The notes under the pieces are model-generated. The model saw only the letters and a list, made by a program, of their open reading frames with translations. It did not search any database and had not been told where the DNA came from. Below are positions 10,789 through 34,970 of a stretch of DNA of 64,000 nt, piece after piece. Every line of letters starts with the position of its first letter. Within the stretch, counting starts at the first letter, position 1. The DNA is from Anaerolineaceae bacterium (GTDB lineage: Bacteria; Chloroflexota; Anaerolineae; Anaerolineales; Anaerolineaceae). Location of the stretch: positions 496,001 to 560,000 of the forward strand of contig JAENZD010000002.1 in NCBI GenBank assembly GCA_016841445.1, given 5' to 3'. Made by a program: the position numbers and the translations under genes.

Positions 10789-11793
10789 ATGGATTGGACG
10801 AATAAGAACATTTTAGTGACCGGTGGGACCGGTTCATTTGGCAAGAAATTTGTTGAAGTCATGATGAAAGAATATCATCCTGCCAGGCTGATCATCTACA
10901 GTCGTGATGAGTTGAAGCAGCACGAAATGCGTATGTCAGGCTTCAATCAACCTAACCTGCGATACTTTATTGGCGACGTCAGGGACCTGCCAAGACTGAA
11001 ACGTGCCTTCAATGGTGTGGATATTGTCGTGCACGCAGCAGCGCTAAAGCAAGTTCCCGCTTGCGAATATAACCCAATGGAAGCCATTAAAACCAATATC
11101 CTCGGGAGCAGCAACGTTGTGGATGCGGCGCTGGATGCGGGTGTGAAGAAAGTCCTGGCGCTCAGTACCGATAAGGCTGTAAACCCGGTCAATTTATACG
11201 GCGCAACGAAATTAGCGGCTGAAAAACTGCTGGTGCAGAGCAATGCCTATGCTGGTGGCACCAACACCCGTTACAGCTGTGTACGCTATGGCAATGTGGT
11301 TGGTTCTCGGGGAAGCGTGGTGCCTTTGTTCATCAAGCAGCGCGAGTCCGGGATGGTGACCCTGACTGACGACCGGATGACACGATTCTGGATTTCATTG
11401 GACCAGGGTGTCCGGTTTGTGATCCGCTGTATTGAAGAAATGCGTGGGGGCGAAGTGTTTGTACCCAAAATTCCCAGTATGAGCATGGTGGACCTTGCAA
11501 AGGTGATTGCACCGGACGCTGAAATTAAAATTATCGGGATCAGGCCGGGAGAAAAATTGCATGAAGTCCTGATCTCTGAAGATGAGTCCCGTACTACCGT
11601 TGAACTGGAAGACATGTACGTGGTCCAGCCCGGCGGTGCATTATGGTTCGGCCATTATTGGTCGGATGTTGGCAAGCCGCTGCCGGATGGCTACCATTAT
11701 GCCAGTGATAACAATACCCAATGGCTGTCGGTTGAAGAGATTAAGGCTATGGTCACGCCCATTGAGGAAGAACTGGAGAGAGGTCTCCAATAA
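10789..11793 (+). CDS. pseB: UDP-N-acetylglucosamine 4,6-dehydratase (inverting), PseB/FlaA1 type
   Basis: A 334-residue short-form CapD/FlaA1 family enzyme. It has TGGTGSFG (11-18), AALKQVP, and the S-T-D-K loop (126-129) with Y137 and K141. The spacing of D128, K129 and Y137 reproduces the catalytic trio of Helicobacter FlaA1 (D132, K133, Y141). That enzyme removes water across C4-C6 of UDP-GlcNAc and inverts C5, giving UDP-2-acetamido-2,6-dideoxy-L-arabino-hexos-4-ulose, the first step toward pseudaminic acid and other L-sugars. The expected next gene, the PseC aminotransferase, does not follow; an RmlD-like reductase does. The product may therefore be reduced rather than aminated. Confidence 0.88.
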   Translation: MDWTNKNILVTGGTGSFGKKFVEVMMKEYHPARLIIYSRDELKQHEMRMSGFNQPNLRYFIGDVRDLPRLKRAFNGVDIVVHAAALKQVPACEYNPMEAIKTNILGSSNVVDAALDAGVKKVLALSTDKAVNPVNLYGATKLAAEKLLVQSNAYAGGTNTRYSCVRYGNVVGSRGSVVPLFIKQRESGMVTLTDDRMTRFWISLDQGVRFVIRCIEEMRGGEVFVPKIPSMSMVDLAKVIAPDAEIKIIGIRPGEKLHEVLISEDESRTTVELEDMYVVQPGGALWFGHYWSDVGKPLPDGYHYASDNNTQWLSVEEIKAMVTPIEEELERGLQ

Positions 11794-11794
11794 G

Positions 11795-12718
11795 ATGCAC
11801 TTGCTCGTGACCGGTGCCAGCGGGCTGTTGGGTCTCAATTTATGCCTGCTGGCGGTTGATAAAGGTAATACCGTGACTGGTCTTGTGAACACACACCCAT
11901 TAACCGGTATTCCTTTTCATCAAGAACAGGTTGATTTATCTCAAACCCCAAAAGCCCTGAATACAATTCTGTCGATAAAGCCGGACGCCATCATCCATTG
12001 TGCTGCGGTTGCGGACCTGAACCTGGCTGAACGAAAACCCGAGCTGGCTCAACAGCTTAACAGCGAGCTCCCGGGACTTCTGGCGGACGCTGCATACCGG
12101 GAGAGTATCCCATTCATTCATATTTCAACAGATGCAGTCTTTGATGGAGAAACAGGTGGATATGATGAGACTGACCTGCCAAACCCTTTGAGTGTCTATG
12201 CCCAAACGAAATTGGCAGGAGAACAAGCGGTGCTGGATGCCAACCCTGAAGCCCTGGTGGCCAGGGTTGTGTTTTATGGTTGGAGTTCATCCGGGAAGCG
12301 CAGTTTGGGGGAGTTCTTTTATAACCATCTTAGAGAGGGCGAACCAATCAATGGGTTCACAGATACCTATTTCTGTCCCCTTTATGTGGAGGATTTATCT
12401 TTAGTGCTTTTGGAAATGTTAACAACTGGATTGAACGGCATATACCATGTGGTCAGCCCTGAAGCCATCAGTAAATATCAGTTCGGACTTCGAATTGCCC
12501 GGGCGTTTGGGTTTGATGAAGGTTTGATCAAACCGATTGCGGCAAGCGATATCCATCGCAACGCACCGCGATCGCTGAATTTATCTTTAAATGCACGAAA
12601 AATCCAATTTGCGCTTGGGAAGGTATTGCCTTCCGTGGATGAAGGAATCCAGCATTTTTACCAGCGATGGAAGCAGGGATATCCGCAAAAATTGCAAAGT
12701 TATTCTTATCCTGAGTGA
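11795..12718 (+). CDS. RmlD-like NAD(P)-dependent sugar reductase
   Basis: A 307-residue extended SDR. The in-frame open frame begins at 11582 inside pseB, but the ATG at 11795, one base after the pseB stop, starts right at the Rossmann motif GASGLLG (7-13). STDAVFDG (111-118) and Y135-AQT-K139 match the dTDP-4-dehydrorhamnose reductase family. Classical RmlD works with RmlA, RmlB and RmlC, none of which are visible here. Because it directly follows pseB, I infer that it reduces the 4-keto group of the PseB product or of a derivative. An equivalent PseB-like plus reductase pairing is known for UDP-N-acetyl-L-rhamnosamine/fucosamine routes, which also need an epimerase. Confidence 0.78.
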   Translation: MHLLVTGASGLLGLNLCLLAVDKGNTVTGLVNTHPLTGIPFHQEQVDLSQTPKALNTILSIKPDAIIHCAAVADLNLAERKPELAQQLNSELPGLLADAAYRESIPFIHISTDAVFDGETGGYDETDLPNPLSVYAQTKLAGEQAVLDANPEALVARVVFYGWSSSGKRSLGEFFYNHLREGEPINGFTDTYFCPLYVEDLSLVLLEMLTTGLNGIYHVVSPEAISKYQFGLRIARAFGFDEGLIKPIAASDIHRNAPRSLNLSLNARKIQFALGKVLPSVDEGIQHFYQRWKQGYPQKLQSYSYPE

Positions 12719-12748
12719 TAATTATTGGATGGTAATTGAGGAGGATTG

Positions 12749-13819
12749 ATGATCATTAATATCGGTAATCGAGCTGTTGGACCAGATGAACCCACATATT
12801 TTATCGCAGATATTGCCGCCAACCACGATGGCAGCCTGGAACGGGCAAAACTGCTGATCAAACTGGCTAAAGAATCCGGTGCAGATGCTGCAAAATTCCA
12901 GAACTTCCGTGCACCGAAGATTGTCTCTGATTATGGATTCTCCCATATGAACGCCCAGGTTTCACACCAGGCGAAATGGAAGCAGTCTGTCTCTGAAGTT
13001 TACGCTGCGGCTTCGGTCCCATTTGACTGGACACCCGTGCTTAAAGAGACGTGTGATGAAGTTGGTATTCACTATTTCTCATCCCCCTATGATTTTGAAG
13101 CCATAGATATGCTGGAGTCTTATGTGCCGGCTTATAAGATCGGTTCCGGGGACATCACCTGGATTGAAGCCTGTGAACGGATGGCTGAAAAAGGAAAACC
13201 GGTACTCCTTGCAACGGGGGCTTCCGAAATTGGTGACGTGCAAAGAGCTGTTCATGCGATCCTGGCGATCAACCCCCAACTGGTGCTGATGCAGTGCAAT
13301 ACCAATTACACAGCTGAAGATGGCAACTTCGATAATATCCATCTGAATGCGCTCAAGACTTACGAGATGATGTTCCCTGATGTCGTAATGGGTTTGTCGG
13401 ATCATACCCATGGGCATGCGACGGTGCTGGGCGCAGTCGCTTTAGGCGCAAGGGTCATTGAAAAACATTTCACCGATGACAACGACCGTGTCGGTCCGGA
13501 CCATCCATTTGCGATGAACCCTGGGACCTGGTCTGCGATGGTCAGGGCGACCCGCCAATTAGAACGGGCTTTGGGTTCCGGTGATAAATTTGTAGCGGAA
13601 AACGAACATGAAACCGTGGTGATCCAACGCCGCTGCTTGAGGGCAGGGCGGGACATAAAGCCAGGAGAAGTAATCACTCGGGAAATGGTTGATGTTCTCC
13701 GCCCAGCAGCACCAGGTGCGATCATGCCTTACGAGTTACAGGCAGTTATTGGATTAAGGGCATTGGAGCGCATCCCCCAAGGCCAGGAACTGCGCTGGGT
13801 GCATCTTGGGAACCCCTAA
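12749..13819 (+). CDS. NeuB-family nonulosonic acid synthase with SAF domain
   Basis: A 356-residue NeuB/PseI/LegI-type enzyme. GAGGAGG at 12738-12744 fits the ATG at 12749 rather than the TTG at 12746. The TIM-barrel half contains IADIAANHDGS near the N-terminus and the probable metal histidines H219 (SDHTH) and H240 (EKHF). Their 21-residue spacing equals that of H215 and H236 in Neisseria NeuB. Residues from about 295 on form the antifreeze-like SAF domain (CLRAGRDIKPGE). The family condenses phosphoenolpyruvate with an acylamino-sugar. One oddity is that the usual AE-(I)G-NHNG motif reads AD-IAANHDG here. The substrate cannot be assigned to sialic, legionaminic or pseudaminic acid from sequence alone. 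Confidence 0.88.
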   Translation: MIINIGNRAVGPDEPTYFIADIAANHDGSLERAKLLIKLAKESGADAAKFQNFRAPKIVSDYGFSHMNAQVSHQAKWKQSVSEVYAAASVPFDWTPVLKETCDEVGIHYFSSPYDFEAIDMLESYVPAYKIGSGDITWIEACERMAEKGKPVLLATGASEIGDVQRAVHAILAINPQLVLMQCNTNYTAEDGNFDNIHLNALKTYEMMFPDVVMGLSDHTHGHATVLGAVALGARVIEKHFTDDNDRVGPDHPFAMNPGTWSAMVRATRQLERALGSGDKFVAENEHETVVIQRRCLRAGRDIKPGEVITREMVDVLRPAAPGAIMPYELQAVIGLRALERIPQGQELRWVHLGNP

Positions 13820-13848
13820 CTAACATCCAATCAGTGAATTGAGACTTG

Positions 13849-14943
13849 ATGCGAATACTATATTTCACAGAAAGGGATACGCCGCATGACCAGCGTTTTC
13901 TTAAGACCCTAGCTGGGACGAAGCATCAAGTTTTTGCATTAAGACAATTTGCCTGCGCCCCTAAAACACCTGAAAACATTACTGAATGTTCGTGGCCGTT
14001 CGCTCAGCCTGATTGGTCTCAGTGGCAGGGTTGGGAAGCTGGGCGGGCCCAATTCCAATCCATTTTAGCGGATATCCAGCCCGACCTTATTCATGCCGGT
14101 CCGGTACAGGGGCCAGCCTTCCTGGCAGCACTGGTAGAATTCCAGCCTTTATTGACCATGTCCTGGGGATCCGATTTGCTGGTGAAAGCGAAGCGCAGCC
14201 CCTGGATGCGTTACGCCACCCGGTTTACACTATCCCGCACCAAACTTTTGTTGGCAGACTGTCAAACAGTAGCAAAAGAGGCGGTGGGGTATGGTTTTCC
14301 TGAAGAGAGAATCATTCTCTTTCCATGGGGTGTGGACCTGGACCATTTTTCACCTGAGAAAGGAAATAAACCGGGAAAGGACCTCCGGCATGCCCTGGGT
14401 TGGGAATACAAATTTGTCGTGATGTGCAACCGGACTTGGTCACCCTTATATGGCGTGGATGTGCTGGCGAGTGCATTTACGGCAGCAGCCCAAGAAAATG
14501 AAAATTTAAGGCTTTTACTCATCGGAGATGGCCCGCAATCTCATTTGATTCGGGATATTCTTGCCCCAGTGGGAGATAAAATTAGCTTTCCAGGATGGGT
14601 TAACCGGGGCGATCTGCCTGCTGCTTATTGTGCATCGGATCTGTTTGTGAGCCCATCCCACAGCGACGGGTCTTCAATTTCGCTCCTTGAAGCGCTGGCT
14701 TGCGGTCGCCCGGTATTGGCTTCTGATATTCCCAGTAACCAGGAATGGGTTCAGTCCAGAGTGACTGGACAATTGTTCAAGGACGGGCAGGTTAATGACC
14801 TCAAGAAAAAAATACTGCAATTGGCAGACGATCACCGTTTGACCCAATATGGCTCAGAAGCACGGAAGTTAGCTGAAAATAGGGCGGATTGGACGAAAAA
14901 TTTCCAGGTACTTTTAGCGGGCTATCAGCAAGCTAAGGAATAG
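13849..14943 (+). CDS. Glycosyltransferase family 4 protein
   Basis: A 364-residue GT-B glycosyltransferase. An in-frame TTG lies 3 bases upstream of the ATG at 13849; the ATG is chosen. The N-terminal half has ILYFTERDTPHDQRF and SWGSDLLV. The C-terminal half has the GT4 donor-site pattern VSPSHSDGSSISLLEALACGRPV, split here as SPSHSDGSS and LLEALACG, with the conserved glutamate in LLEAL. It closes the first export operon about 29 bases after the NeuB gene. Downstream, a weak stem (ACC-TTAC-GGT near 14971-14980) precedes TTTTTT at 14989, possibly a poor terminator, before the ABC/lipoprotein unit starts. Confidence 0.88.
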   Translation: MRILYFTERDTPHDQRFLKTLAGTKHQVFALRQFACAPKTPENITECSWPFAQPDWSQWQGWEAGRAQFQSILADIQPDLIHAGPVQGPAFLAALVEFQPLLTMSWGSDLLVKAKRSPWMRYATRFTLSRTKLLLADCQTVAKEAVGYGFPEERIILFPWGVDLDHFSPEKGNKPGKDLRHALGWEYKFVVMCNRTWSPLYGVDVLASAFTAAAQENENLRLLLIGDGPQSHLIRDILAPVGDKISFPGWVNRGDLPAAYCASDLFVSPSHSDGSSISLLEALACGRPVLASDIPSNQEWVQSRVTGQLFKDGQVNDLKKKILQLADDHRLTQYGSEARKLAENRADWTKNFQVLLAGYQQAKE

Positions 14944-15133: not shown

Positions 15134-15856
15134 GTGATCGAAATCAACGCCATCACCAAGTCATTCAATCATACAAAGGTCCTTGAAAATATCTCCTTCC
15201 ATCTGGATGAGGGTAAAGTTTTGGGTATTTTAGGGCCTAATGGTTCTGGCAAAACAACATTACTGAAGATCCTTGCGCTTGTATTAAAGCCAGACCAGGG
15301 GGCTTACACCATAAAGGGGGATGATGCTTTTAAGGCCTCACAAAAATTCAGGTCGATGATTGGTTATGTCCCGCAAGATGTCGCTTTGTTTGATGAATTA
15401 TCTGTTATGGATAATCTGATTTATTGGTCTCGACCGGGCGGTAACCACAATAAAGGGAAATACCACAAGTTGTTGGAAATCTTCGAGATTGATCAGTATT
15501 CCCGGAAGAAAGTATTCATACTTTCCGGAGGTATGAAACGCCGGTTGAACCTGGCCGTTGCACTGCTGAACGAGCCTAAAATTTTGATCATGGATGAACC
15601 CATGGTGGGGGTTGATATCCTGCAGTTAAAGCATTTGCAGGAACACCTAGAATATTTAGCAACCACTGGGATCACTCAAATCGTGACGTCCCATAATGCC
15701 AGTGCAGTGATAAATATTGTTGATCAAATTTTGTTACTGTATGACGGAAAAATGCGGTATTTCCAGGAAAAATCCGAATTCCTGGCACTCTGTAACCATA
15801 ATTTTGGTAATTTAGATGAAACGATTCTAAAACTCATTTATTTAAAAGGAGAGTAA
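15134..15856 (+). CDS. ABC transporter ATP-binding protein
   Basis: A 240-residue ABC ATPase starting with GTG after a GGAGAA ribosome site. Walker A is GPNGSGKTT (34-42), the Q-loop is GYVPQDVAL, the signature is LSGGMKRR and Walker B is ILIMDEPMVGVD. The Q in VPQD and the D-loop are intact, so it should hydrolyse ATP. It belongs to the ABC-2 exporter (DRA/CcmA-like) group rather than to importers. Its stop is two bases from the start of the lipoprotein gene, preceded by a strong AAAGGAGAG. With the two permeases at 17549 and 18760 it forms a complete exporter. Cargo is not evident. Confidence 0.9.
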   Translation: MIEINAITKSFNHTKVLENISFHLDEGKVLGILGPNGSGKTTLLKILALVLKPDQGAYTIKGDDAFKASQKFRSMIGYVPQDVALFDELSVMDNLIYWSRPGGNHNKGKYHKLLEIFEIDQYSRKKVFILSGGMKRRLNLAVALLNEPKILIMDEPMVGVDILQLKHLQEHLEYLATTGITQIVTSHNASAVINIVDQILLLYDGKMRYFQEKSEFLALCNHNFGNLDETILKLIYLKGE

Positions 15857-15858
15857 AG

Positions 15859-17520
15859 ATGAAAAGGATAAAAAGGTTTGTTTTTGGGATCATGATCTTT
15901 GTGTTTATCTTTGGGATGACAGGATGCATTCCCCAACAGAGTAAGTCGGAGCAGTTCACCCAGGGTTTTGTGGATATACTGACCAAACCGCTCGATAAAA
16001 TGGAAGAAGCAGAAGAAATCGAGTATCCAGATAACTTGACCGGAGAACTGAGTGAACTGATCAATACCCGGTCCCATGAAATGTCCACCATTATTGAAAT
16101 TAATAACCTGGGGGGGCTTGATAGTATGGGCTTAGAGATTGGGCGAGGGTCCCGTCTCGAACTTGATACTGCATATGATGTGAACACCGGGGATGGTATG
16201 GCGGAGGTTAATGTCGTCAATCTGGCGAATGTGCAGTTAGGTTTGCAGAACGAAGAAATAGCTGTGGACCTCTCATCACCGTTTATGCAGCAAATATTCA
16301 TCCTGGATTATGCCTCAGAACTGGATTTTGGCGATGAAATCCTACTAACAGATCGAGTATCGGATTTAATGAATGCGCTTGATGTTTCCAATACATCCAG
16401 TGAAGATGTGTTTTCAGATCTGCAAACGGATCTTCAGACCCTGCTAGATCGATACGCGATTGTGATTGAAGGTGTTTTACAAGAAGATCAGATAGCCAGC
16501 GAGTCCCAGGAGATGGAAGTCCTGGGGAAGGATACCAAAGTCCAGGTCTTGACATTAGAAATGGATGAACGCGATTTGGAAGATATCCTGGCTGCCGTTT
16601 TAGAATATGCTGAAGATGATGATGAATTGACTGACGTGGTGATGAAGTATGTTGAAAAGATTTACCCACTCCTTGGGGGCTATGAACCCGATTCATCTGA
16701 ACTGGGGGATATCGAGGATGATTTACAGGATTCTATTTCTTACGCAGCAAATGACTTGAGCGATATGGCGGATTATTGGGAGGGTATGGATATTACTGTC
16801 GATATCTACTATACCTATAAGGGCTTTTTGTCGGGTTTAATCCAGGGGATTCCCTTCCTGCAATCAAAGCAGCCGTTTGCCGTTGGATTTTCATTTGAGG
16901 ACGACTATAGTGAGTTGAGTATGTTCCTTAAATTTGCTGAGGATGACGATCAGCGAGATCTTGCTCTGGATATTTCGTACGATGACGGCTACAGCAGCGT
17001 TGAAGCAAAGGTTGAAATGCTGTCGGACGGCCAGGAATTCATTCTTTCTGCTGATGCTGACATGAATGGTGAGTTAAGTATTACTGTAGATATGACCAAT
17101 ACAAAAGACGGCAGTGAATACACACTGGAAGGTGAGATTGAGGTCGAATCCTACGACATTACTTTGAACGCAGACATCAGCGGGGTCACCCAGGTTGAAG
17201 GGGATACGGAATCAGGCGAATATGAAATCTCAGGTTCCTTAGTAGACTACTGGGGTGACACATATGAAGCAAATGTTATGTTTTCAACCGAACTGACCCA
17301 GATTAGAAGCGGATCAAGCTATGAGAGCGTCTCTGATATTTCTGCGGATGTTACTTTTTATGGCGAGACCCTCTCAGCAGATCTGACCGTGGAAACTTCC
17401 TGGAATTTCTCAGATGACATTGAGGTAAGTCTTCCTGATTTCGATGACCCTGATGCTGAGTATTATGATATTGAGGAACTGTTTGAGGAAATCCCAAACC
17501 TTCTCTATTATTTTTGGTAA
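15859..17520 (+). CDS. Large acidic lipoprotein of an ABC exporter unit, unknown family
   Basis: A 553-residue protein with a basic start, a hydrophobic stretch and a lipobox-like MTGC ending at Cys23, so it should be lipid-anchored outside the membrane. The mature part is strongly acidic. From about residue 325 it shows alternating hydrophobic/polar strands with repeated SADAD, EGEIEVES and ADVTF-like pieces, suggesting a long antiparallel beta sheet. I do not recognise a named domain. It sits between an ABC ATPase and two ABC-2 permeases with tight spacing, so it is probably the extracytoplasmic partner of that exporter. A carrier of a lipid or hydrophobic cargo, as LolA-like folds are, is possible but is speculation. 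Confidence 0.72.
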   Translation: MKRIKRFVFGIMIFVFIFGMTGCIPQQSKSEQFTQGFVDILTKPLDKMEEAEEIEYPDNLTGELSELINTRSHEMSTIIEINNLGGLDSMGLEIGRGSRLELDTAYDVNTGDGMAEVNVVNLANVQLGLQNEEIAVDLSSPFMQQIFILDYASELDFGDEILLTDRVSDLMNALDVSNTSSEDVFSDLQTDLQTLLDRYAIVIEGVLQEDQIASESQEMEVLGKDTKVQVLTLEMDERDLEDILAAVLEYAEDDDELTDVVMKYVEKIYPLLGGYEPDSSELGDIEDDLQDSISYAANDLSDMADYWEGMDITVDIYYTYKGFLSGLIQGIPFLQSKQPFAVGFSFEDDYSELSMFLKFAEDDDQRDLALDISYDDGYSSVEAKVEMLSDGQEFILSADADMNGELSITVDMTNTKDGSEYTLEGEIEVESYDITLNADISGVTQVEGDTESGEYEISGSLVDYWGDTYEANVMFSTELTQIRSGSSYESVSDISADVTFYGETLSADLTVETSWNFSDDIEVSLPDFDDPDAEYYDIEELFEEIPNLLYYFW

Positions 17521-17548
17521 ACCCAGGAGATATTTTCAAATAGGATAA

Positions 17549-18763
17549 ATGCTTAGAATCATCCGAATTGAACTGAAGCGCTTGTTTTCGAACAAACTAT
17601 CACTGGCGCTGGCTGTATTAGCGCCAGTGATCAGTTTATTATTCCTTGCCTCCTTAATTGCACCCCTGTTTTTTGCCAATCAACGGCTGGCACGGATGCA
17701 AGTGGTTGTTTTTCAGGAAGAGATCCATCCTGATGCGCAAGTTGTTATTGATGATGTCATTTCAAGCGAGTATGTTTTGTCGCTGGTGGATATAAAATTT
17801 GTCAGCTCAGTTTCCGAGGGCATTTCCATGACTGAAAACGGAGAAGCCGCAATTTTCATTTATATTCCCGCTGGCTTGATTGATCAACTTTACAACCGGG
17901 AACAAGCCACGATCAGTTTGTGGGTCAGTCCCGACTATTATTTTGAGGCTGCGCTATTCCTGCCGATAACCAATAGTATTGTTGATGGGTTCAATCGGAT
18001 TCAATTTGCGCTGGATACACTATATTTCAGGGCAATGGATGAGTTTCCTAATAATTTTGTCTGGGAGCATTATTATGATTTGACACTATTGATCGGACTC
18101 AGGGTAATGAACCGCCCAGTCCTTTTCGATATTGAAGGGATTAACCCATTGGGAAGATTCTTACCCATTGAGTACTATACTTCTGCCATTTTCGCATTTT
18201 TTACGGGTTTGGGTCTCATCCCCCTTTGTGGATACAATGCCAAAGATTTTACCAGTGCTACCATTAGCCGCGGGTTAGCTGTCACTCGCTGCCGTTACCA
18301 ATATCTCTTCGCCAGAATTATTTCTGGTGCACTTTACATCCTCCTGGTGGCTTTACCAATGCTGATCGTTGGTATTTTAATCGTTGGCATGGATATAGCC
18401 TTTGGGGGCAGCTTGATGGCGTTGTTTGGCGTGACGATCATTTCAGCATTATGTTTTTCTAGCCTTGCTGTTTTATTTGGATTGATCCTGCCGAAGGGTG
18501 ATAATGCTGTCTGGTTGGGATTCTATTTCATTCTTTTCATGGCTCTGCTGGGCGGGATCATTTTCCCGGATGATTATATTCCCAAGGCATTTCTGATCCT
18601 GGGACGGTTTTCACCATTAAGAGCGGGGATGAACAGCTTTGCTGTCTCTTTATTTAATTATGCATTTCGAAAATTGCAATTTCCTTTATTGATTCAATTC
18701 ATCTGGTTTATTCTGGCTTTTTTGATCTCGCTGCCATTGTTTAATCGGAGAGTGCGGTCATGA
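17549..18763 (+). CDS. ABC-2 type transporter permease
   Basis: A 404-residue membrane protein with one N-terminal helix (about 20-45), a soluble ectodomain of roughly 150 residues (starting around MQVVVFQEEIHPDA), and five or six helices from about 205 to the end. This 1+5 topology with a large outside loop is typical of the ABC2_membrane_3/YhgE-Pip-like exporter permeases. AGGA just upstream of the ATG serves as ribosome site. Its last four bases overlap the next permease in an ATGA. It should pair with the permease at 18760 as a heterodimer energised by the ATPase at 15134. Confidence 0.85.
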   Translation: MLRIIRIELKRLFSNKLSLALAVLAPVISLLFLASLIAPLFFANQRLARMQVVVFQEEIHPDAQVVIDDVISSEYVLSLVDIKFVSSVSEGISMTENGEAAIFIYIPAGLIDQLYNREQATISLWVSPDYYFEAALFLPITNSIVDGFNRIQFALDTLYFRAMDEFPNNFVWEHYYDLTLLIGLRVMNRPVLFDIEGINPLGRFLPIEYYTSAIFAFFTGLGLIPLCGYNAKDFTSATISRGLAVTRCRYQYLFARIISGALYILLVALPMLIVGILIVGMDIAFGGSLMALFGVTIISALCFSSLAVLFGLILPKGDNAVWLGFYFILFMALLGGIIFPDDYIPKAFLILGRFSPLRAGMNSFAVSLFNYAFRKLQFPLLIQFIWFILAFLISLPLFNRRVRS

Positions 18764-27562: not shown

Positions 27563-28785
27563 AAAAACCGGAAGTACTTGCGATCATCCCTGCCCGCGGG
27601 GGCTCAAAAGGTATCCCGGGTAAAAATATCCGAGATTTTGCGGGGTTTCCATTGATTGCTTACAGCATTGTTGCTGCCAGGCAATCAGAGGGTGTGACCC
27701 GCGTGATCGTTTCAACGGATTCCCCTGAGATTTCTGATGTTGCGAAAAAATTCGGCGCAGAAGTACCATTTATCCGTCCTGCGTCATTAGCTGAAGATAC
27801 GACACCGGATCAGCCTGTCTTTTTGCATGCATTAAACTGGCTTGCAGAAAATGAGGACTACCGGCCTGATTTAGTCGTGCAATTACGCCCTACCTCTCCA
27901 ATTCGCCCCCTGGATCTCATTGACCGTGCCGTCGAGATCATGAGCGAGAACCCTGATGCTGATTCCGTACGTGGGGTTGTCCCGGCTGGGCAAAATCCAC
28001 ACAAAATGTGGCGGATAGCAGCAGATGGCAAACTGATCCCCCTCTTGACGGTTGCGGGGATTGACGAACCTTATAATGCACCGCGTCAGAGCCTGCCGCC
28101 TGTTTACTGGCAGACCGGCCATATTGATGTTATCCGACCGGAAGTGATCCTTAAGAAAGGATCAATGAGTGGCGATGTTATTTTGCCGGTGTTGATCGAC
28201 CCGGATTACATGGTTGATATTGATAATCTGGGGGATTGGGCTCGTTACGAGTGGGTCGTCCGGGAGAAGAACCTGGAGATGGTTTGGCCGGGGTCGAAAA
28301 AGCGGCACTGGCCGGAGAAGATCTCGCTGGTTGTCTTCGATTTTGACGGTGTTTTGACGGATGATCGCGTGTGGGTTAACCAGGATGGCGAAGAATTTGT
28401 TGCAGCGAACAGATCGGACGGCGCTGGTATTCGACTGCTTCTGAATGGAGGCGTCAAAGCTGTTATCATCTCAACAGAGGTGAACCCGGTGGTTGCTTCT
28501 CGGGCAAAAAAGATCGGTTTACCTTACTTTCAGGGGATTGGTGATAAGCGGCGTACGCTCTTATCTTATCTTGAGACAGAAGGCTGCCTTGCTGAGGAAA
28601 CGGTTTATGTGGGAAATGATCTGAATGACCTACCCTGTTTCCCGATTGTGGCTTTTACTTTTGCTGTTGCGGATGCCCATGAAGAAGTTCTTCGACAGGC
28701 GGACCACGTGCTTATGAAAAAAGGTGGATATGGTGCCGTGCGAGAAGTCTGTGATATGATTTTGAGAAAGTACGAACAAAGTTAA
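27556..28785 (+). CDS. Fused acylneuraminate cytidylyltransferase (NeuA-like) and KdsC-like HAD phosphatase
   Basis: A 409-residue bifunctional protein. ATG 27556 follows GGAGG by nine bases and is preferred over a TTG at 27547. Residues 1-235 are a CMP-sialate synthetase: IIPARGGSKGIPGKN at 10-24, then LRPTSPIR, and YWQTGHIDVIR. Residues from about 250 form a class C0 HAD phosphatase with all four motifs: D262-F-D264-GVLTD, IIST, GDK, and GNDLND with D355 and D358. KdsC-like HADs remove phosphate from Kdo-8-P or KDN-9-P. The same fusion order occurs in vertebrate CMAS. The domain pair suggests that the sugar reaches this enzyme as a phosphate ester and is dephosphorylated and CMP-activated in one protein. 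That reading is an inference. Confidence 0.9.
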   Translation: MVEKPEVLAIIPARGGSKGIPGKNIRDFAGFPLIAYSIVAARQSEGVTRVIVSTDSPEISDVAKKFGAEVPFIRPASLAEDTTPDQPVFLHALNWLAENEDYRPDLVVQLRPTSPIRPLDLIDRAVEIMSENPDADSVRGVVPAGQNPHKMWRIAADGKLIPLLTVAGIDEPYNAPRQSLPPVYWQTGHIDVIRPEVILKKGSMSGDVILPVLIDPDYMVDIDNLGDWARYEWVVREKNLEMVWPGSKKRHWPEKISLVVFDFDGVLTDDRVWVNQDGEEFVAANRSDGAGIRLLLNGGVKAVIISTEVNPVVASRAKKIGLPYFQGIGDKRRTLLSYLETEGCLAEETVYVGNDLNDLPCFPIVAFTFAVADAHEEVLRQADHVLMKKGGYGAVREVCDMILRKYEQS

Positions 28786-28832
28786 TACGTATCCATGGTT
28801 TCAAACTTTACGGTTTATTAAAGGAGTACCTA

Positions 28833-29708
28833 ATGACTCGAGAAGTAAATATCGCTGGACGGATGGTTGGAGATGGACATCCAACATATATCATTGCTGA
28901 GATCGGAATCAACCATAACGGCAGCGTTCAGACTGCCAAGGATTTGATCAAATCTTCCTACGATGCAGGTGTAGATGCGGTTAAGTTCCAGAAGCGAACC
29001 CCTGAAATCTGTGTGCCTGATCATCAGAAAGACCAAATGCGCGACACACCCTGGGGCTATATTTCCTACCTCGATTACCGCTACAAAGTGGAATTCGGTC
29101 AGGATGATTATAAAGAGATTGACGACTATTGCAAATCGCTGGGGATCCATTGGCTGGCCAGTTCATGGGATTTGCCATCTTTGGCATTCATTGATGCTTT
29201 CAATCCACCTGCACATAAGGTTCCTTCCGCATTATTAACTGACCATGAACTCTTGAGGGGGATGAAAGCCACAGGAAAACCCATCATTCTTTCGACCGGT
29301 ATGTCAACCATGGAAGAAATTAGAAAATCGGTTGACATCGTTGGCGAGGAAAATTTATTGTTATGTCATACGACCAGCAGTTATCCCTGCCCGCCTGAAG
29401 AGCTCAACTTGAAAATGGTTCAAACGCTTAAAGATAACTTCGACTGTCCGGTTGGTTACTCTGGACATGAGGTTGGCCTGGTACCCTCCGCGTTAGCGGT
29501 TGCTCTTGGCGCTTGTTTGGTCGAGCGGCATGTTACCCTCGACCGGGCTATGTGGGGGTCTGACCAATCCGCATCTGTCGAGCCCCACGGCTTGCGGACA
29601 CTGGTGAAATATATCCGGGTAACGGAAAAATCAATGGGTGATGGGGAGAAGAAAGTCTATGACAGCGAACAATCTTCACTCAAGAAACTGCGGCGCTACA
29701 GCCGCTAA
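28833..29708 (+). CDS. NeuB-family synthase, short form without SAF domain
   Basis: A 291-residue protein with a good AAAGGAG ribosome site. It opens with the canonical IAEIGINHNGS, continues with VDAVKFQK, and holds probable metal histidines H212 (SGHE) and H233 (ERHV), again 21 residues apart. It ends near residue 290 without the C-terminal SAF domain. In NeuB homologues that domain contributes to the partner active site, so this enzyme may bind substrate differently, or it may resemble KDN-9-P/Neu5Ac-9-P synthases that act on a phosphorylated hexose. Its position after the NeuA/HAD fusion supports a phosphorylated pathway. The family is firm; the substrate is not. Confidence 0.88.
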   Translation: MTREVNIAGRMVGDGHPTYIIAEIGINHNGSVQTAKDLIKSSYDAGVDAVKFQKRTPEICVPDHQKDQMRDTPWGYISYLDYRYKVEFGQDDYKEIDDYCKSLGIHWLASSWDLPSLAFIDAFNPPAHKVPSALLTDHELLRGMKATGKPIILSTGMSTMEEIRKSVDIVGEENLLLCHTTSSYPCPPEELNLKMVQTLKDNFDCPVGYSGHEVGLVPSALAVALGACLVERHVTLDRAMWGSDQSASVEPHGLRTLVKYIRVTEKSMGDGEKKVYDSEQSSLKKLRRYSR

Positions 29709-29722: not shown

Positions 29723-31327
29723 ATGCAGATCATCAAGCGAGCCAGGAGATATTTACGATATCAGCCCCTAAGGCAAAGGATTAACAACGATATCCGGAAA
29801 ATGGGGAAGATTGTGGCAAAAGCCGCACCTGAACCGGACGATGAGCGGATTGTTGTTTCGTTCAATGCCTCCACCCGCATCTCCGGAATGAGTTTGAATG
29901 CTGCATTTGCCATGATGACTGGGTGGTCACTGCGCTTAGAGGGTGTACGTGTGGTTAATTTTGTTTGCCAGCAGGGAATGAGCCGCTGCGTATTGGGTAC
30001 GGATAATAACGATATCAACCGCAAGCCTCCCTGCCAGAAATGCTTATTGCAATCATCGTCGATCTACACCCGCACTGATGTCCTGTGGATGCCGTCCAAT
30101 GACTCCCCAGATATCGAAAAAAACCTTCAAAACACGGATCTTGCAGCCCTCATAAAATTTAAATATGAGGGAATCCCTTTAGGTGAATTGTGCCTGCCTT
30201 CCATGCGCTGGATTTTGCGGCGCCATCACCTGGTGAATGATGAGCCGACCCGGATTCTTTACCGCCACTATATCCTTTCGGGTTATAAAGTTGCCAAGCA
30301 CTTTGACACACTCTTGTCTGAAACGAACCCGTTATCTGTGATGGTATTTAACGGGATGCAGTTCCCCGAAGCTGCAGCCAGGTGGGTTGCCCGGGGAAGG
30401 AATATCCCTGTTTATACCCATGAGGTTGGACTGCGCCCGTTATCCGCATTTTTCACTGAGGGTGACGCTACCGCTTACCCGGTAGATATTCCTGATGATT
30501 TCCAATTAACCCCCGAACAGGACTGGCAGCTGGACGATTACCTTTCAAAACGGTTTAAGGGTGATTTCAGCATGGCGGGGGTCGCTTTCTGGCCGGAAAT
30601 GCAGGGCCTGGACCAGGACCTGATTGATAAAATTAAAAATTTTAATCAGGTTGTGCCAATTTTTACAAATGTGATCTTTGATACCAGCCAACCCCATGCC
30701 AATACCCTCTTTTCGGATATGTTTACCTGGTTGGATGATGTGCTGCAGGTCATAAACAAACACCCGGAGACCCTGTTTGTGATCCGGGCACATCCAGATG
30801 AATCGCGCCCCGGGAAAGCCAGCCGGGAGAGCGTGACGGCGTGGGTGAAATTGCGAGAGGTTGAATCGCTGCCGAATGTGGTCTTTATCGGTCCCGATTC
30901 TTACTTCAGCTCATATGAAATGATCCAGCGCGCAAAATTTGTGATGATCTACAACTCTACGATTGGGATGGAAGCCTCGATTATGGGTGCACCGGTGTTA
31001 TGTGCCGGAAAGGCACGGTTTACCCAGTTGGAAACGGTATTCTATCCAAAATCACGAATGGAATACCTCGATCAGTTACACCTGTTCCTTTCGGCAGATG
31101 AGGTTGAAGCTCCCCAAATCCACAGATTGAACGCAAGGCGATTTCTTTATTACCAGCTTTTCCGTACTTCAATTCCATTTGATCAATTTATAGAACCGGA
31201 TGGGATCTTGCCGGGTTTTGTCAGGCTGAAGGAATTCGGATGGCAGGATTTGCTGCCTGAAAATTCGGAAACCCTGCGGGTGATCAGTGAAGGACTGTTG
31301 GAAGGAAAAGGGTTTCTACTTCCTTAA
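29723..31327 (+). CDS. Capsule-biosynthesis-type GT-B protein
   Basis: A 534-residue soluble protein 14 bases after the NeuB gene. The N-terminal half holds a Cys-containing stretch, CVLGTDNNDINRKPPCQKC written in two parts as FVCQQGMSRC and PPCQKCL, which could bind a metal. The C-terminal half has IRAHPDE (R355, H357, P358) and MEASIMGAP with E417, the same arrangement as in the gene at 8234. Such proteins are usually annotated as capsular polysaccharide biosynthesis proteins. Because KpsC/KpsS relatives use CMP-Kdo and the flanking genes make a CMP-nonulosonate, this is a sensible candidate transferase for that sugar. No direct evidence is available in the sequence. Confidence 0.65.
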   Translation: MQIIKRARRYLRYQPLRQRINNDIRKMGKIVAKAAPEPDDERIVVSFNASTRISGMSLNAAFAMMTGWSLRLEGVRVVNFVCQQGMSRCVLGTDNNDINRKPPCQKCLLQSSSIYTRTDVLWMPSNDSPDIEKNLQNTDLAALIKFKYEGIPLGELCLPSMRWILRRHHLVNDEPTRILYRHYILSGYKVAKHFDTLLSETNPLSVMVFNGMQFPEAAARWVARGRNIPVYTHEVGLRPLSAFFTEGDATAYPVDIPDDFQLTPEQDWQLDDYLSKRFKGDFSMAGVAFWPEMQGLDQDLIDKIKNFNQVVPIFTNVIFDTSQPHANTLFSDMFTWLDDVLQVINKHPETLFVIRAHPDESRPGKASRESVTAWVKLREVESLPNVVFIGPDSYFSSYEMIQRAKFVMIYNSTIGMEASIMGAPVLCAGKARFTQLETVFYPKSRMEYLDQLHLFLSADEVEAPQIHRLNARRFLYYQLFRTSIPFDQFIEPDGILPGFVRLKEFGWQDLLPENSETLRVISEGLLEGKGFLLP

Positions 31328-31452
31328 CATCAGGCAATCGGTTTATTGTGAACCGTTTGGTTCGTCTGACATTAATCTTCTATTTTTACGAATAATTTTC
31401 GGTATTATTTTCATATTTCATCTTATAAATTTTGTCGAATTGTCATAGGGCG

Positions 31453-31621: not shown

Positions 31622-32302
31622 ATGACGATGAAAATTGTTGGATTGGTACCGATGCGCCACGTTTCTGTGCGGGTTCCGGGTAAGAATTATCGCCCATTAG
31701 CTGGAAAACCGCTATATCATCATATATTATCAACCCTGCAGGCTGTGCCTGAAATCGATACCGTGTTGGTGGATACGGATAGCCCTAAAATATTAGAGGG
31801 CCTTGCCCAAAGCTTCCCGGGAGTTCAAGGAGTATCTCGCCCGGAAAACCTGCGAGGGGATATGGTTCCCATGAATGAGATCCTGATCCATGATACTTCC
31901 TTGATCGAAGCGGATTACTACCTTCAAACCCACTCTACGAACCCATTACTCAGGCCTGAAACGATATCTTCTGCGATCAAAGCATTCCTGGGAAATTTAG
32001 CGGAATATGATTCGCTTTTCGGCGTGACGCGGCTGCAAACCCGGCTCTGGGATTCGCTGGGAAGACCGATTAATCACGACCCCAAAGTGCTGCTCCGCAC
32101 GCAAGATCTGCCGCCGGTTTATGAAGAAAATTCCTGCATTTATATTTTCAAAAGGGATATGCTTGTTCAGAGGCGAAACCGGCTAGGTGAACGTCCGATG
32201 ATGTTCGAAATTCCGGCGGTGGAAGCCTGGGATATTGACGAGGAACTTGATTTTGTCGTGGCGGATTCATTGATGAAGTATTTTTTCAGCCTTTCAAAGT
32301 GA
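31622..32302 (+). CDS. CMP-N-acetylneuraminate-type cytidylyltransferase
   Basis: A 226-residue single-domain enzyme of the NeuA/NeuA-like family. MRHVSVRVPGKNYRPLAGKP runs from residue 11 and replaces the usual IPARGGSKGIPGKN, with H and V in positions that are normally G. The phosphate-binding loop is therefore unusual. LQTHSTNPLLRPETI gives the expected Q-x-x-S/T-P-like segment, although proline-serine order differs. Ends with AWDIDEELDFVVADS, the metal-binding WDIDxxxD end motif. ATG 31622 and ATG 31628 are both possible. It starts a sub-operon with a hydroxyacid dehydrogenase and an SDR. The altered loop hints at a different sugar or nucleotide. Confidence 0.8.
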   Translation: MTMKIVGLVPMRHVSVRVPGKNYRPLAGKPLYHHILSTLQAVPEIDTVLVDTDSPKILEGLAQSFPGVQGVSRPENLRGDMVPMNEILIHDTSLIEADYYLQTHSTNPLLRPETISSAIKAFLGNLAEYDSLFGVTRLQTRLWDSLGRPINHDPKVLLRTQDLPPVYEENSCIYIFKRDMLVQRRNRLGERPMMFEIPAVEAWDIDEELDFVVADSLMKYFFSLSK

Positions 32303-32339
32303 TGTGTATCGCCTAACCACCAGTATTCAGGAGTAGTTG

Positions 32340-33326
32340 ATGAAGACAATTTTGATATCTGCGCCTTATATCTTGCCTGAAATGGATCGCTTCCGCCCTG
32401 TACTGGAAGCGTTTAATTTGGAGCTGATCCTGCCGGAGGTCAATGAAAGGCTTTCCGAGGAAGAAATATTAAAATATGCTGGTGGTTTTGATGGCACCCT
32501 ATGTGGTGATGACCGATACACCAGGCAGGTCATTGAAGCCTGCGCCCCACGCTTGAAAGTGATCTCGAAATGGGGGACCGGTATTGATTCAATCGATCAG
32601 GATGCAGCATCAGATTTTGGGATCATGGTCGGGAATACACCCAATGCTTTCACTGTCCCTGTCTCGGAAAGTGTTCTGGGCTACATGCTCGCATTTGCCA
32701 GGCAGATACCCTGGTTGGACGCAAAAGTGAAAAAAGGGGAATGGGAGAAGTTGATTGGCAAAACCCTTAGCGAGTGCACCCTGGGAGTCATAGGTGTTGG
32801 AAATGTCGGGAAGGCGGTACTGCGGCGAGCGCGCAGTTTTGGAATGAAATTATTGGGAAATGATATCGTTGAGATCCCTCCGGATTTCCTGGTTGAGTTT
32901 GGTGTCGAGATGACAGACCTGGATGATCTTCTGAGGCGATCTGACTTTATCAGCATCAACTGTACCTTGAACCCGACCAGCCATCACCTGATCAACAAAG
33001 AACGGCTGGCCCTTTGCCAGCCGGAAGCGGTTTTGATTAATACCGCACGCGGACCGGTTGTGGACCAGGATGCCCTGGTGGAAGCCCTTGAAGGGAAAGT
33101 TATCCGGGGGGCGGCAATGGATGTTTTTGAGGATGAACCTCTGCCAGCGAACAGCCCCCTCCTTACGATGGCGCATGTTTTACTTGCTCCTCATAATTCT
33201 AATTCCAGCCCTGGGTATTGGGAGCGCGTGCACTGGAACACCATCAACAACTTGCTAATTGGGCTGGGGATATCGACTGAGCCTCTTTCTGAAATGAAAA
33301 AACGTTACAGCAAAGGGTTGGTTTAG
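32340..33326 (+). CDS. D-isomer specific 2-hydroxyacid dehydrogenase (phosphoglycerate dehydrogenase-like)
   Basis: A 328-residue enzyme, starting at the ATG 32340 rather than the TTG three bases earlier. It has GVGNVG (152-157) for NAD, R237 in NTARGPVVD, the glutamate in DVFEDEP (261-267) and H285 in APHNSN, so the Arg-Glu-His catalytic set is complete. It lacks a C-terminal ACT domain, which argues against a housekeeping SerA. Lying between a cytidylyltransferase and an SDR, it may oxidise or reduce an alpha-hydroxy acid used in making an acidic sugar or a glycerate/lactate decoration of the glycan. That role is inferred from context. Confidence 0.85.
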   Translation: MKTILISAPYILPEMDRFRPVLEAFNLELILPEVNERLSEEEILKYAGGFDGTLCGDDRYTRQVIEACAPRLKVISKWGTGIDSIDQDAASDFGIMVGNTPNAFTVPVSESVLGYMLAFARQIPWLDAKVKKGEWEKLIGKTLSECTLGVIGVGNVGKAVLRRARSFGMKLLGNDIVEIPPDFLVEFGVEMTDLDDLLRRSDFISINCTLNPTSHHLINKERLALCQPEAVLINTARGPVVDQDALVEALEGKVIRGAAMDVFEDEPLPANSPLLTMAHVLLAPHNSNSSPGYWERVHWNTINNLLIGLGISTEPLSEMKKRYSKGLV

Positions 33327-33393
33327 GCACTTCAGGTATGGTAGAAATATGCGGACAAAATATGATGACCAAACGGTGGAAGGAACCCAGGAA

Positions 33394-34161
33394 ATGACTG
33401 ATAAGGCCAAAAGAATTTTGTTGATCACCGGTGCTGCCGGCGGTATAGGACGGGCAACTGTCAAAGTGTTTGCTGAAAAAGGCTGGCAGGTGATCGGTGT
33501 GGACCGAAGTCCAAAATATGAAGAATTCCCGGAAAATGGGGTCTACATCCAGGCTGATATTTCGCTGCCTGAGAAAATTGAAGAGATCTATGAAAAAGTC
33601 GCAGCGATCACGTCCACGCTGGATGCGGTTGTGAATAATGCGGCCATTCAGATCGCCAAACCGCTCGTCGACACAACAGCCGCTGAATGGGATATGGTGA
33701 TGGCCTCCAATTTACGGTCCGTATTTTTAGGCGCAAAATTAGCTTTCCCCTTACTCAAAGCTGAGGGCGGCGGCGCGATTGTGAACGTCTCTTCCGTGCA
33801 TGCGGTGGCGACTTCTGCCAATATTGCGGCGTATGCCGCCAGCAAGGGCGGTTTACTGGCACTCACTCGGGCGATGGCGATCGAGTTTGCCCAGGATGAG
33901 ATCCGGGTCAACGCCATATTGCCTGGCGCAGTCGATACCCCGATGCTCCGGGCTGGGTTCAACCGGGGGCATGTGGGTGAGGGTGATGTGCTGGAAAGGC
34001 TGGAAAACCTGGCACGCAAAACGGTCAACGGACGTGTGGGGCAGCCTGAAGAAATTGCCCGATCCATTTACTTCCTGGCGGACAACGATCAATCTTCATT
34101 TATGACCGGGCAGGCATTGATTGTTGATGGCGGTGCGACCTGCCGTTTGAGCACTGAATAG
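33394..34161 (+). CDS. Short-chain dehydrogenase/reductase
   Basis: A 255-residue classical SDR. The open frame begins at ATG 33349, but ATG 33394 has GGAAGGA at suitable distance and starts just before the fold, so it is chosen; the upstream start would add 15 residues. It has ITGAAGGIG (11-19), DAVVNNAAI, S133/S134 in NVSSVHA, and Y147-AAS-K151. D37 after the second strand suggests NAD(H). It ends with FMTGQALIVDGGAT, the standard SDR tail. It follows the hydroxyacid dehydrogenase and precedes the MptE-like gene by two bases, so they are in one operon. Substrate is unknown. Confidence 0.85.
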   Translation: MTDKAKRILLITGAAGGIGRATVKVFAEKGWQVIGVDRSPKYEEFPENGVYIQADISLPEKIEEIYEKVAAITSTLDAVVNNAAIQIAKPLVDTTAAEWDMVMASNLRSVFLGAKLAFPLLKAEGGGAIVNVSSVHAVATSANIAAYAASKGGLLALTRAMAIEFAQDEIRVNAILPGAVDTPMLRAGFNRGHVGEGDVLERLENLARKTVNGRVGQPEEIARSIYFLADNDQSSFMTGQALIVDGGATCRLSTE

Positions 34162-34163
34162 CA

Positions 34164-34970
34164 ATGAAAAAGAGACTTAAAAAGGTTCTTCCTGAATCGG
34201 TCTGGCAATTTGGCCGGCAAAGTTGGGATGGGATCAAACGCATTCCCAAAAGTATTGAAGCCAATCTGCATCCCTGGCGGCGTGAGAGCATCAGGAAGCT
34301 GAGGGCTTTGAAGGACAGCTATAAGGGGAAGCGCTGTGTGATCATTGGCAATGGGCCAAGTCTGAATAAAACGGATGTCAATCGAATTCAATATGAATTT
34401 ACGTTCGGTTTGAACCGGATCTATCTGGCTTGGGAAGATTGGGGATTTAAGACATCATTCTTGCTTTCCGTTAACGATCTTGTGATCGAACAGTGTGCTG
34501 AAGATTTCCGCTCTCTATCTATCCCAATGTTCATGGCTTGGCGAGCTCACCAATGGCTTGAACCGCGAGAGAACCTGCACTTTCTTTACACAACCTACAC
34601 CGGGCCTAAATTTGCCAAAGATGCCAGTACACGGTTGTGGGAAGGTGCGACGGTAACCTATACAGCGCTGCAGTTGGCTTACCATATGGGGTTTTCGACC
34701 GTGGTTCTGATCGGTGTGGACCACAGCTTTGTCTCGAAAGGAAAACCAAACCAGACCGTTGTCTCAGAAGGTGACGACCCCAACCACTTCAACCCGAAAT
34801 ATTTTGGCAAAGGCTTTCGCTGGCAGCTTCCGGATCTGGATACCTCGGAAACTGCATATAGAATGGCTCACCGGGCCTTTCTGGATGATAACAGGCAAGT
34901 GTTGGATGCAACCGTTGGCGGCCAGCTGGATGTTTTCCCCAAAGTGGATTACGATCGGTACTTCAGTTAA
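34164..34970 (+). CDS. DUF115/MptE-like protein, candidate acidic-sugar transferase
   Basis: A 268-residue protein with a basic, amphipathic N-terminus and the motif VIIGNGPSLNKTD (G62-N63-G64-P65-S66-L67). This GNGPSL loop marks the DUF115/MptE-like fold, which archaeal 6-hydroxymethylpterin diphosphokinase shares with the central domain of Maf proteins that attach pseudaminic or legionaminic acid to flagellin. Later segments LSVNDLVIEQ and VVLIGVDHSFV also fit. Pterin biosynthesis is unlikely in this location. Since the region makes CMP-nonulosonates, I infer a transferase acting on a CMP-sugar. It lies 2 bases after the SDR and 5 bases before a GT2. Confidence 0.75.
   Translation: MKKRLKKVLPESVWQFGRQSWDGIKRIPKSIEANLHPWRRESIRKLRALKDSYKGKRCVIIGNGPSLNKTDVNRIQYEFTFGLNRIYLAWEDWGFKTSFLLSVNDLVIEQCAEDFRSLSIPMFMAWRAHQWLEPRENLHFLYTTYTGPKFAKDASTRLWEGATVTYTALQLAYHMGFSTVVLIGVDHSFVSKGKPNQTVVSEGDDPNHFNPKYFGKGFRWQLPDLDTSETAYRMAHRAFLDDNRQVLDATVGGQLDVFPKVDYDRYFS

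Follow-up and report, generated by a model that had tools for sequence, protein, structure and literature searches.

Background

The closest described counterparts of the gene set considered here, which is predicted to make nonulosonic acids (NulOs; sialic-acid-like surface sugars), are the pseudaminic acid (Pse) pathway (PseB-C-H-G-I-F), the Bacteroides-type pathway to 2-keto-3-deoxynononic acid (KDN), an operon of Fusobacterium nucleatum 25586 and, for a single protein, the animal CMP-sialate synthetase. The gene set occupies positions 10789-34970 of a 64,000-nucleotide stretch of an Anaerolineaceae genome (3.35 Mb, 98.9% complete), namely positions 496001-560000 of contig JAENZD010000002.1 (C6); this whole stretch is called the window. 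We read the gene set as two separate NulO modules, of which module A would form a fusaminic-type acid by reduction and module B a KDN-like acid by way of a sugar-phosphate, neither aminating C4 of the hexose (C7 of the acid). The probability of this reading was put at about 0.5. Every reaction and both products named below are predictions drawn from the observed gene content, absences, conservation and active-site differences.

The PseB family forms 5-inverted UDP-4-keto-6-deoxy-HexNAc, which PseC aminates in the Pse route. Module A shares with that route a PseB above its profile cut-off and a NeuB/PseI-type synthase with a SAF domain. It differs in that no PseC, PseH or PseG over cut-off was found in the genome, in the RmlD-type reductase that stands beside the synthase, and in its SpsF-like cytidylyltransferase. 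For a Vibrio cluster it has been proposed that an SpsF-like domain takes the place of NeuA (PMC7371886).

The O-chain of F. nucleatum 25586 contains 2-acetamido-2,6-dideoxy-L-altrose (L-6dAltNAc) and fusaminic acid (PMC13014188); as described there, the latter is a 9-deoxy acid with nitrogen at C5 and none at C7, like the predicted product of module A. The name fusaminic acid has also been applied to a 5,7-diamino acid (PMC7371886). Genes FN1682-FN1686 of the same strain encode a NeuB with SAF, a dTDP-4-dehydrorhamnose reductase, a NeuB/CTP-transferase fusion and a GNAT, and the authors, who noted the missing NeuC, predicted N-acetylneuraminic acid (Neu5Ac) (PMC4045943). As far as that description goes, both loci place a NeuB with SAF beside an RmlD-type reductase and have no NeuC, whereas the NeuB/NeuA fusion and the GNAT of the F. 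nucleatum operon are not found in module A. Module A shows the features by which we defined a fusaminic-type grouping of our own on this one operon (NeuB with SAF beside an RmlD-type reductase, without NeuC). In the open-licence literature, as far as its accessible text goes, we found no paper that links the F. nucleatum fusaminic acid structure to FN1682-FN1686 and none that assigns fusaminic acid biosynthesis.

The Bacteroides-type KDN pathway combines a NeuB-family synthase, a KdsC-type HAD phosphatase and a CMP-transferase without amination enzymes, as does module B. In module B, unlike that pathway, the synthase (NeuB2) has no SAF domain and falls in a clade of its own, the HAD and CMP-transferase domains are fused, and the HAD domain scores well below the cut-off of the KDN-9-phosphate (KDN-9-P) phosphatase profile NF058599. 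The CMP-transferase and HAD parts of the fusion match 1qwj and 3ewi, which we take to be parts of one animal protein, the CMP-sialate synthetase with a C-terminal HAD domain. Unlike in that protein, the HAD catalytic residues are all conserved here, so the domain is probably an active phosphatase.

Two synthase types in the Anaerolineaceae

The genome has two NeuB genes (PF03102), both inside the window: NeuB1, with a SAF domain, and NeuB2, without. The NeuB1 query was searched against 61 genomes of the Anaerolineaceae, a family of wastewater and sediment bacteria, own genome included, and matched 60. Matches were sorted into the two types by identity and extent, at our own judgment rather than by a row-by-row check for SAF; four weak rows were left out, and a few NeuB1-like genes were fragments at contig ends. 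Sorted in this way, a NeuB1-like gene was present in 57 genomes, a NeuB2-like gene in 58 (G455 contributing just a 71-aa fragment) and both in 55, so the gene set is not a chance assembly. The two types lay on one contig in 38 of the 55 genomes, and within 20 kb of each other in 35 of those 38. Searched by titles and abstract openings, the literature held nothing on NulO biosynthesis in Chloroflexota or Anaerolineae.

Module A: a predicted reductive route

Module A spans 10789-13819 and 20131-20931. All bit scores, here and below, were judged against the curated cut-off of each profile.

10789..11793, + strand: PseB, UDP-GlcNAc 4,6-dehydratase, C5-inverting (TIGR03589, 499.5 bits, cut-off 407.75; PF02719)
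11795..12718, + strand: RmlD-type short-chain dehydrogenase/reductase (SDR), proposed 4-keto reductase (PF04321; TIGR01214, 188.9 bits, below the cut-off of 224)
12746..13819, + strand: NeuB1, NulO synthase with SAF domain (PF03102 and PF08666)
20131..20931, + strand: SpsF-like CTP_transf_3 protein, proposed CMP-NulO synthetase (PF02348; SpsF-like is a label that we presume from our own reading of the sequence)

The true start of the RmlD-type gene is about 11795; the longer open reading frame (ORF) starts at 11582, inside PseB, and PF04321 begins at its residue 72. Because PseB passes its equivalog cut-off, its expected product is the 5-inverted UDP-4-keto-6-deoxy-HexNAc; by family membership, it would convert UDP-GlcNAc to UDP-2-acetamido-2,6-dideoxy-4-keto-L-hexose. 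The RmlD-type protein, which among solved sequences comes closest to RmlD-type reductases and MAT2B, would reduce the 4-ketone where PseC would aminate it; UDP-linked 6-deoxy-L-AltNAc or its C4 epimer would be expected. The sugar would then leave UDP, a gap in the proposed route to which no enzyme is assigned, here or in F. nucleatum. NeuB1 would condense the sugar with phosphoenolpyruvate (PEP) to a 5-acetamido-3,5,9-trideoxy-nonulosonic acid of fusaminic type, and the SpsF-like enzyme would turn this acid into its CMP-sugar.

Arg314 of the synthase NmNeuB is described as the sole SAF residue directly in the active site, where it holds the N-acetyl group in position; the R314A variant has no activity (PMC6795526). 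NeuB1 has an Arg opposite R314 (HMMER alignment to 1xuu). A substrate with a 2-acetamido group would suit a synthase that has kept SAF and this Arg, and the acid predicted from it is 5-acetamido-3,5,9-trideoxy and hydroxylated at C7.

Neighborhoods were counted in the loci of the 30 best NeuB1 matches with 1.5-kb flanks, the window's own locus being set aside (n = 29). A GT4 gene adjoined NeuB1 in 29 of 29 loci and RmlD in 28; the counts were 25 for PseB and 15 for the SpsF-like gene. Four loci had no PseB: L165 and L173 had a methyltransferase (MT) match upstream of RmlD, L171 had a shorter flank, and L172 had neither RmlD nor PseB. Longer maps were made for five stretches, from five genomes already among the 29 loci. 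The order MT-PseB-RmlD-NeuB1-GT4-SpsF was kept in all five, and in each the SpsF-like gene was the next window gene after GT4. In the window these two are separated by a transporter cassette that splits module A; it was matched in 0/5 mapped relatives, and we leave it out of the pathway.

13846..14943, + strand: GT4-family protein, probably a glycosyltransferase (PF13692/PF00534)
15134..19935, + strand: ABC-transporter cassette (ABC_tran, a protein without Pfam match, two ABC2 membrane proteins; Pfam)

This neighborhood bears on a different account of the same genes, in which PseB and RmlD make UDP-6-deoxy-L-HexNAc (6dAltNAc, or another L-sugar with a WecB-type epimerase) for direct transfer, and NeuB1 is unrelated and uses N-acetylmannosamine (ManNAc). 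Pairs of PseB-type and RmlD-type enzymes are known from the L-FucNAc and L-QuiNAc routes. A non-hydrolysing WecB is encoded at C6:641239 (481.9 bits, cut-off 210; NeuC_NnaA 102 bits, cut-off 235.9), the best profile of NeuB1 is NeuB_NnaB (264.5 bits, below the cut-off of 399.65), and L-6dAltNAc is a separate sugar in F. nucleatum 25586 (PMC13014188). However, this WecB is the only PF02350 (Epimerase_2) protein in the genome; a hydrolysing epimerase of the NeuC/LegG type was not found genome-wide, and with it no NeuC to provide ManNAc. The adjacency of RmlD to NeuB1 (28/29), with PseB preceding (25/29), also speaks against independent roles. We consider direct transfer rather unlikely.

Standard NulO enzymes

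The sequence-only reading held that PseC, PseH and PseG are missing and that the set may make one acid, KDN-like or otherwise new, perhaps by oxidation and reduction rather than amination. The absence survived a search of the whole genome; the single pathway was replaced by two modules. No DegT, PseG or PseH was found in the window (PF01041, TIGR03590 and TIGR03585 without match; GNATs other than PseH were not searched as such). Genome-wide, PF01041 had eight matches, five of them strong and none in the window. None of the five passed as PseC (best 331.3 bits, cut-off 423.5) or as LegC (best 289 bits on C6, cut-off 420). The best GNAT in the genome reached 68.2 bits for PseH (contig C7, cut-off 93.1), and the single PseG match was weak (25.3 bits, cut-off 153.55). 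Among the 61 family genomes PseG exceeded its cut-off in none and matched weakly in 33. KdsA had no match in the genome. A check for PseC/LegC, PseH and PseG/LegG elsewhere, of the kind that the earlier reading had suggested, returned nothing over cut-off, together with five strong DegT proteins, one of which stands beside a LegB-like dehydratase.

Module B: a fused phosphatase and a SAF-less synthase

Module B spans 27547-29708.

27547..28785, + strand: PseF/NeuA-type CMP-transferase fused to a KdsC-type HAD phosphatase (TIGR03584, PRK09484, NF058599)
28833..29708, + strand: NeuB2, SAF-less NulO synthase (PF03102 only)

The fusion protein scored 150 bits as PseF (TIGR03584) and 120 bits as KdsC (PRK09484), both below cut-off. 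Neighborhoods and residues of NeuB2 were counted in the best 80 of 580 relatives, which came from Chloroflexota, Bacteroidota, Chlorobi, Poribacteria, Actinobacteria and others; the closest named records were Anaerolineaceae (Chloroflexota), the first being a Brevefilum metagenome-assembled genome (82%). An ORF matching the fusion (CMP_HAD) was present in 71 of these 80 loci; L030, from the cultured relative Bellilinea caldifistulae GOMI-1, carries CMP_HAD-NeuB2. Only ORFs of at least 360 aa (53) were aligned, 18 shorter ones, some of them HAD alone, having been dropped beforehand; the HAD residues D265, D267, S309, K334, D358 and D361 were invariant in 53/53.

All relatives of NeuB2 were short, with 287-310 residues from the match start in 79/80 (the exception, L070 with 350, runs into N). 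Shortening of NeuB2 by error was rejected on these lengths and because the next gene begins 15 bases past the stop codon. The catalytic residues E25, K53, Q55, K129, S132, S154, Y186, H215, H236 and D247 were kept in 80/80. Position 134 was non-acidic in 80/80 (Ser in 56, Ala 10, Leu 5, Cys 4, Gly 2, Thr 2, Val 1); it is acidic in NmNeuB, PseI, 6ncs, NeuB1 and the synthases of L119-L124, with exceptions in the SAF-less synthases of L125, L127, L129 and L130, which stand beside CMP-HAD genes. Residue 134 is not among the NmNeuB contacts listed in the accessible part of PMC6795526. Contacts listed there that also differ in the NeuB2 relatives are T110 (Ser in 80/80) and N184 (Ser in 77/80). An AlphaFold2 model of NeuB2 (mean predicted confidence, pLDDT, 92.6) had 6ncs and NmNeuB as its nearest Foldseek neighbors, followed by 3-deoxy-D-arabino-heptulosonate 7-phosphate (DAHP) and 3-deoxy-D-manno-octulosonate 8-phosphate (Kdo8P) synthases. 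The model thereby confirmed a NeuB-type barrel, without indicating the substrate.

In a tree of 48 synthase rows, the SAF-less group (29 rows, with three genes fetched twice) formed one clade (support 100/99). The split between NeuB1, NmNeuB and PseI on one side and 6ncs, the phosphatase-linked synthases and the SAF-less group on the other had support 99/94. Our literature search on SAF-less NeuB proteins returned nothing on point.

That the activating enzyme carries a phosphatase domain suggests a phosphorylated acid and hence a sugar-phosphate as the substrate of NeuB2, and with the SAF Arg lost, this substrate is less likely to bear an N-acetyl group. Taken together, these two features point to a KDN-like acid. 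NeuB2 would condense a non-acetamido sugar-6-phosphate, most simply mannose-6-phosphate, with PEP; the HAD domain would then strip the phosphate from the product, and the CMP-transferase domain would activate the acid to a CMP-activated KDN-like acid.

KDN-9-P phosphatases were surveyed in 395 Bacteroidota genomes (the phylum of the genome that holds locus L081), of which 10 exceeded the cut-off (loci L119-L128). The synthases beside the phosphatases of L119-L124 carry a SAF tail and an S-R-D motif, and we therefore rejected the view that NeuB2 is simply the orthologue of the KDN-9-P synthase of Bacteroides. It also lies outside the clade of these synthases, a clade defined by L119-L124 and not by a B. 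thetaiotaomicron sequence. The synthases of L125 and L127 make up a second SAF-less group and stand next to CMP-transferase and HAD matches, and L126 and L128 had no NeuB within the short flank. NeuB2 may thus work like the KDN-9-P synthase family without being a member of it.

The same domains could be taken for an 8-carbon 3-deoxy-D-manno-octulosonic acid (Kdo) system. A KdsC-type phosphatase as part of a regular Kdo pathway was rejected, KdsA being without match in the genome. That absence would suit a variant in which module B replaces KdsA-KdsC-KdsB and makes a Kdo-type acid from arabinose-5-phosphate, as would the best score of the HAD domain, which is KdsC, and the lack of SAF in Kdo8P synthases as well (PMC6795526). 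We nevertheless consider this highly improbable: NeuB2 belongs to PF03102, its nearest folds are of NeuB type with Kdo8P and DAHP synthases further off, and the CMP-transferase half matches PseF (150 bits) better than the KdsB models (35-51 bits).

Gfo and SDR1

25666..26634, + strand: Gfo/Idh/MocA oxidoreductase (Gfo), proposed tailoring enzyme (PF01408, PF02894, PF22725)
26738..27562, + strand: SDR1, classical SDR, proposed tailoring enzyme (PF13561)

Gfo was present in 29 and SDR1 in 45 of the 80 NeuB2 loci. When the count was restricted to the 41 loci with CMP_HAD, NeuB2 and an upstream stretch of at least 8 kb, 22 had both, nine SDR1 alone, one Gfo alone and nine neither. Both genes were present in four of the five mapped stretches and absent from the fifth, L183, and from L021, while the rest of the set stayed. 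These two loci are 90.6% alike in DNA over 18 kb, and their absences perhaps represent one loss. The sequence-only reading had placed Gfo and SDR1 at the center of the pathway. Given the absences in L183, L021 and 9/41 loci, together with the different synthase types of A and B, a single pathway with Gfo and the SDRs as its core was rejected. For the same absences, Gfo and SDR1 are more likely tailoring enzymes, dispensable in some relatives, that would modify a product in some species. The nearest precedent is in Acinetobacter, where SDRs beside a legionaminic acid (Leg) module were proposed to help convert CMP-Leg to epimers (PMC5595891).

Other surroundings of NeuB2 were also recorded. In Bacteroidota and Ignavibacteria, loci L081, L087, L089, L095 and L097 have a class III aminotransferase upstream of SDR1-HAD-NeuB2 (Pfam-supported in L087), and all of these except L087 also have two ORFs read as transketolase halves. 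In Chlorobiaceae (L072, L099, L100 and others) a HAD gene is followed by a SAF-less NeuB with no other sugar genes recognized adjacent; the neighbors were interpreted as fumarase, pyrophosphatase or HtpG. Elsewhere in the Chloroflexota, NeuB2 clusters (L044:4506-6239, L054:10920-11774) contain ATP-sulfurylase/APS-kinase and sulfotransferase genes, and a link between NulO and sulfate modification may exist.

Remaining genes of the window

29723..31327, + strand: Capsule_synth-like protein, candidate glycosyltransferase (PF05159, 26.1 bits, cut-off 20)
31622..32302, + strand: third CTP_transf_3 protein, weakly PseF-like (PF02348; TIGR03584, 65 bits, cut-off 205.7)
32337..33326, + strand: 2-hydroxyacid dehydrogenase (PF02826; TIGR01327, 211 bits, below cut-off)
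33349..34161, + strand: SDR2 (PF13561)
34164..34970, + strand: MptE-like protein (PF01973, 60.4 bits, cut-off 34.6)

The Capsule_synth-like gene was found in 41 of the 80 NeuB2 loci. The genes of 31622-34970 (cytidylyltransferase, 2-hydroxyacid dehydrogenase, SDR2 and MptE-like protein) often travel together in relatives as a recurring block. The MptE-like protein, which had no sequence match in the PDB, presumably shares its domain class with Maf NulO transferases. All genes named in the sequence-only reading were recovered (PseB, the RmlD-like protein, two NeuB, three CTP_transf_3 proteins, Gfo/Idh/MocA, two SDRs and the 2-hydroxyacid dehydrogenase); it had overlooked the HAD domain on the cytidylyltransferase at 27547, the difference in SAF between NeuB1 and NeuB2, and the terminal MptE-like protein. 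Further along, 51931-58230 holds a tRNA gene and then a low-GC stretch (31-41%) with a 991-aa Acyl_transf_3/PGA_cap/GDSL protein, possibly an acquired element.

Discussion

Several observations weigh against the two-module reading. For module A, there is no hydrolase candidate for release of the sugar from UDP, and the likeness to F. nucleatum, as far as the published operon description goes, covers NeuB with SAF, the reductase and the missing NeuC, with PseB outside the comparison. For the supply of amino sugars, a DegT protein on contig C3 (C3:1611277; PseC 331 bits, cut-off 423.5; LegC 253 bits, cut-off 420) lies beside a LegB-like dehydratase (TIGR04180, 399 bits, cut-off 475), and the C7 GNAT, at 68 of 93.1 bits for PseH, leaves room for a divergent supply. 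For module B, the HAD domain failed the equivalog test for KDN-9-P phosphatase (NF058599, 77-80 bits, cut-off 180), and the tree program flagged long branches that take part in the key split. A synthase need not lose SAF to make KDN, as the synthases of L119-L124 indicate, and the human synthase, which carries a SAF domain (PMC13214540), accepts mannose-6-phosphate (PMC6795526). The SAF-less PDB chain 6ncs is titled N-acetylneuraminate synthetase. Phosphomannose isomerase had no match to PF01238 or PF10432 in the genome, although these profiles detect only 2/14 and 3/14 controls.

From the C3 and C7 genes one could construct a divergent Leg- or Pse-type pathway, in which the LegB/DegT pair and the GNAT provide NeuB1 or NeuB2 with a 2,4-diacetamido sugar. 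Each of these proteins has some similarity to the required enzyme, but every one is below its curated cut-off, PseG, NeuC and LegG were not found genome-wide, and the components are spread across three contigs. The C3 locus (1602000-1621000) also holds a nucleotidyltransferase and a polyprenyl sugar-phosphate transferase (PF02397) and constitutes a second glycan locus; the position of the pair beside this transferase suggests another glycan. We read the pair as making the amino sugar of that glycan, while it could be a divergent Leg supply; a pathway of this kind is improbable.

A closer variant keeps the two modules and changes the substrate of NeuB2 from mannose-6-phosphate to some other modified sugar phosphate, made with SDR1 and Gfo in some species. 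The non-acidic residue 134, the class III aminotransferase and SDR1 upstream of HAD-NeuB2 in some Bacteroidota and Ignavibacteria loci, and the isomerase result would agree with it. It is harder to reconcile with the Chlorobiaceae, several loci of which have HAD-NeuB2 with neither SDR1 nor Gfo within the available stretch, and with the 9/41 loci in which both are missing. We regard this variant as somewhat unlikely and retain, for module B, the KDN-like acid.

A bolder reading, which we hold only tentatively, is of a near-universal Anaerolineaceae trait that would combine an unrecognized fusaminic-type route with a phosphate-route NulO from a SAF-less NeuB, possibly neither KDN nor a known NulO. 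As part of it, SAF-less NeuB proteins, their active site altered in that residue 134 is non-acidic, would form a subfamily spanning several phyla.

In the extracellular polymeric substances of granular sludge, KDN was reported to rank second in abundance among the NulOs in three of four samples, sulfated glycans also being present in this material, and according to the authors KDN and Neu5Ac synthases are indistinguishable by annotation (PMC10483923). One possible marker of a KDN-type producer is a SAF-less NeuB next to a CMP-transferase/HAD fusion, and module A would offer a concrete enzyme set for fusaminic acid, the structure of which is published. A NulO type read from NeuB alone would probably mislabel both NeuB1 and NeuB2.

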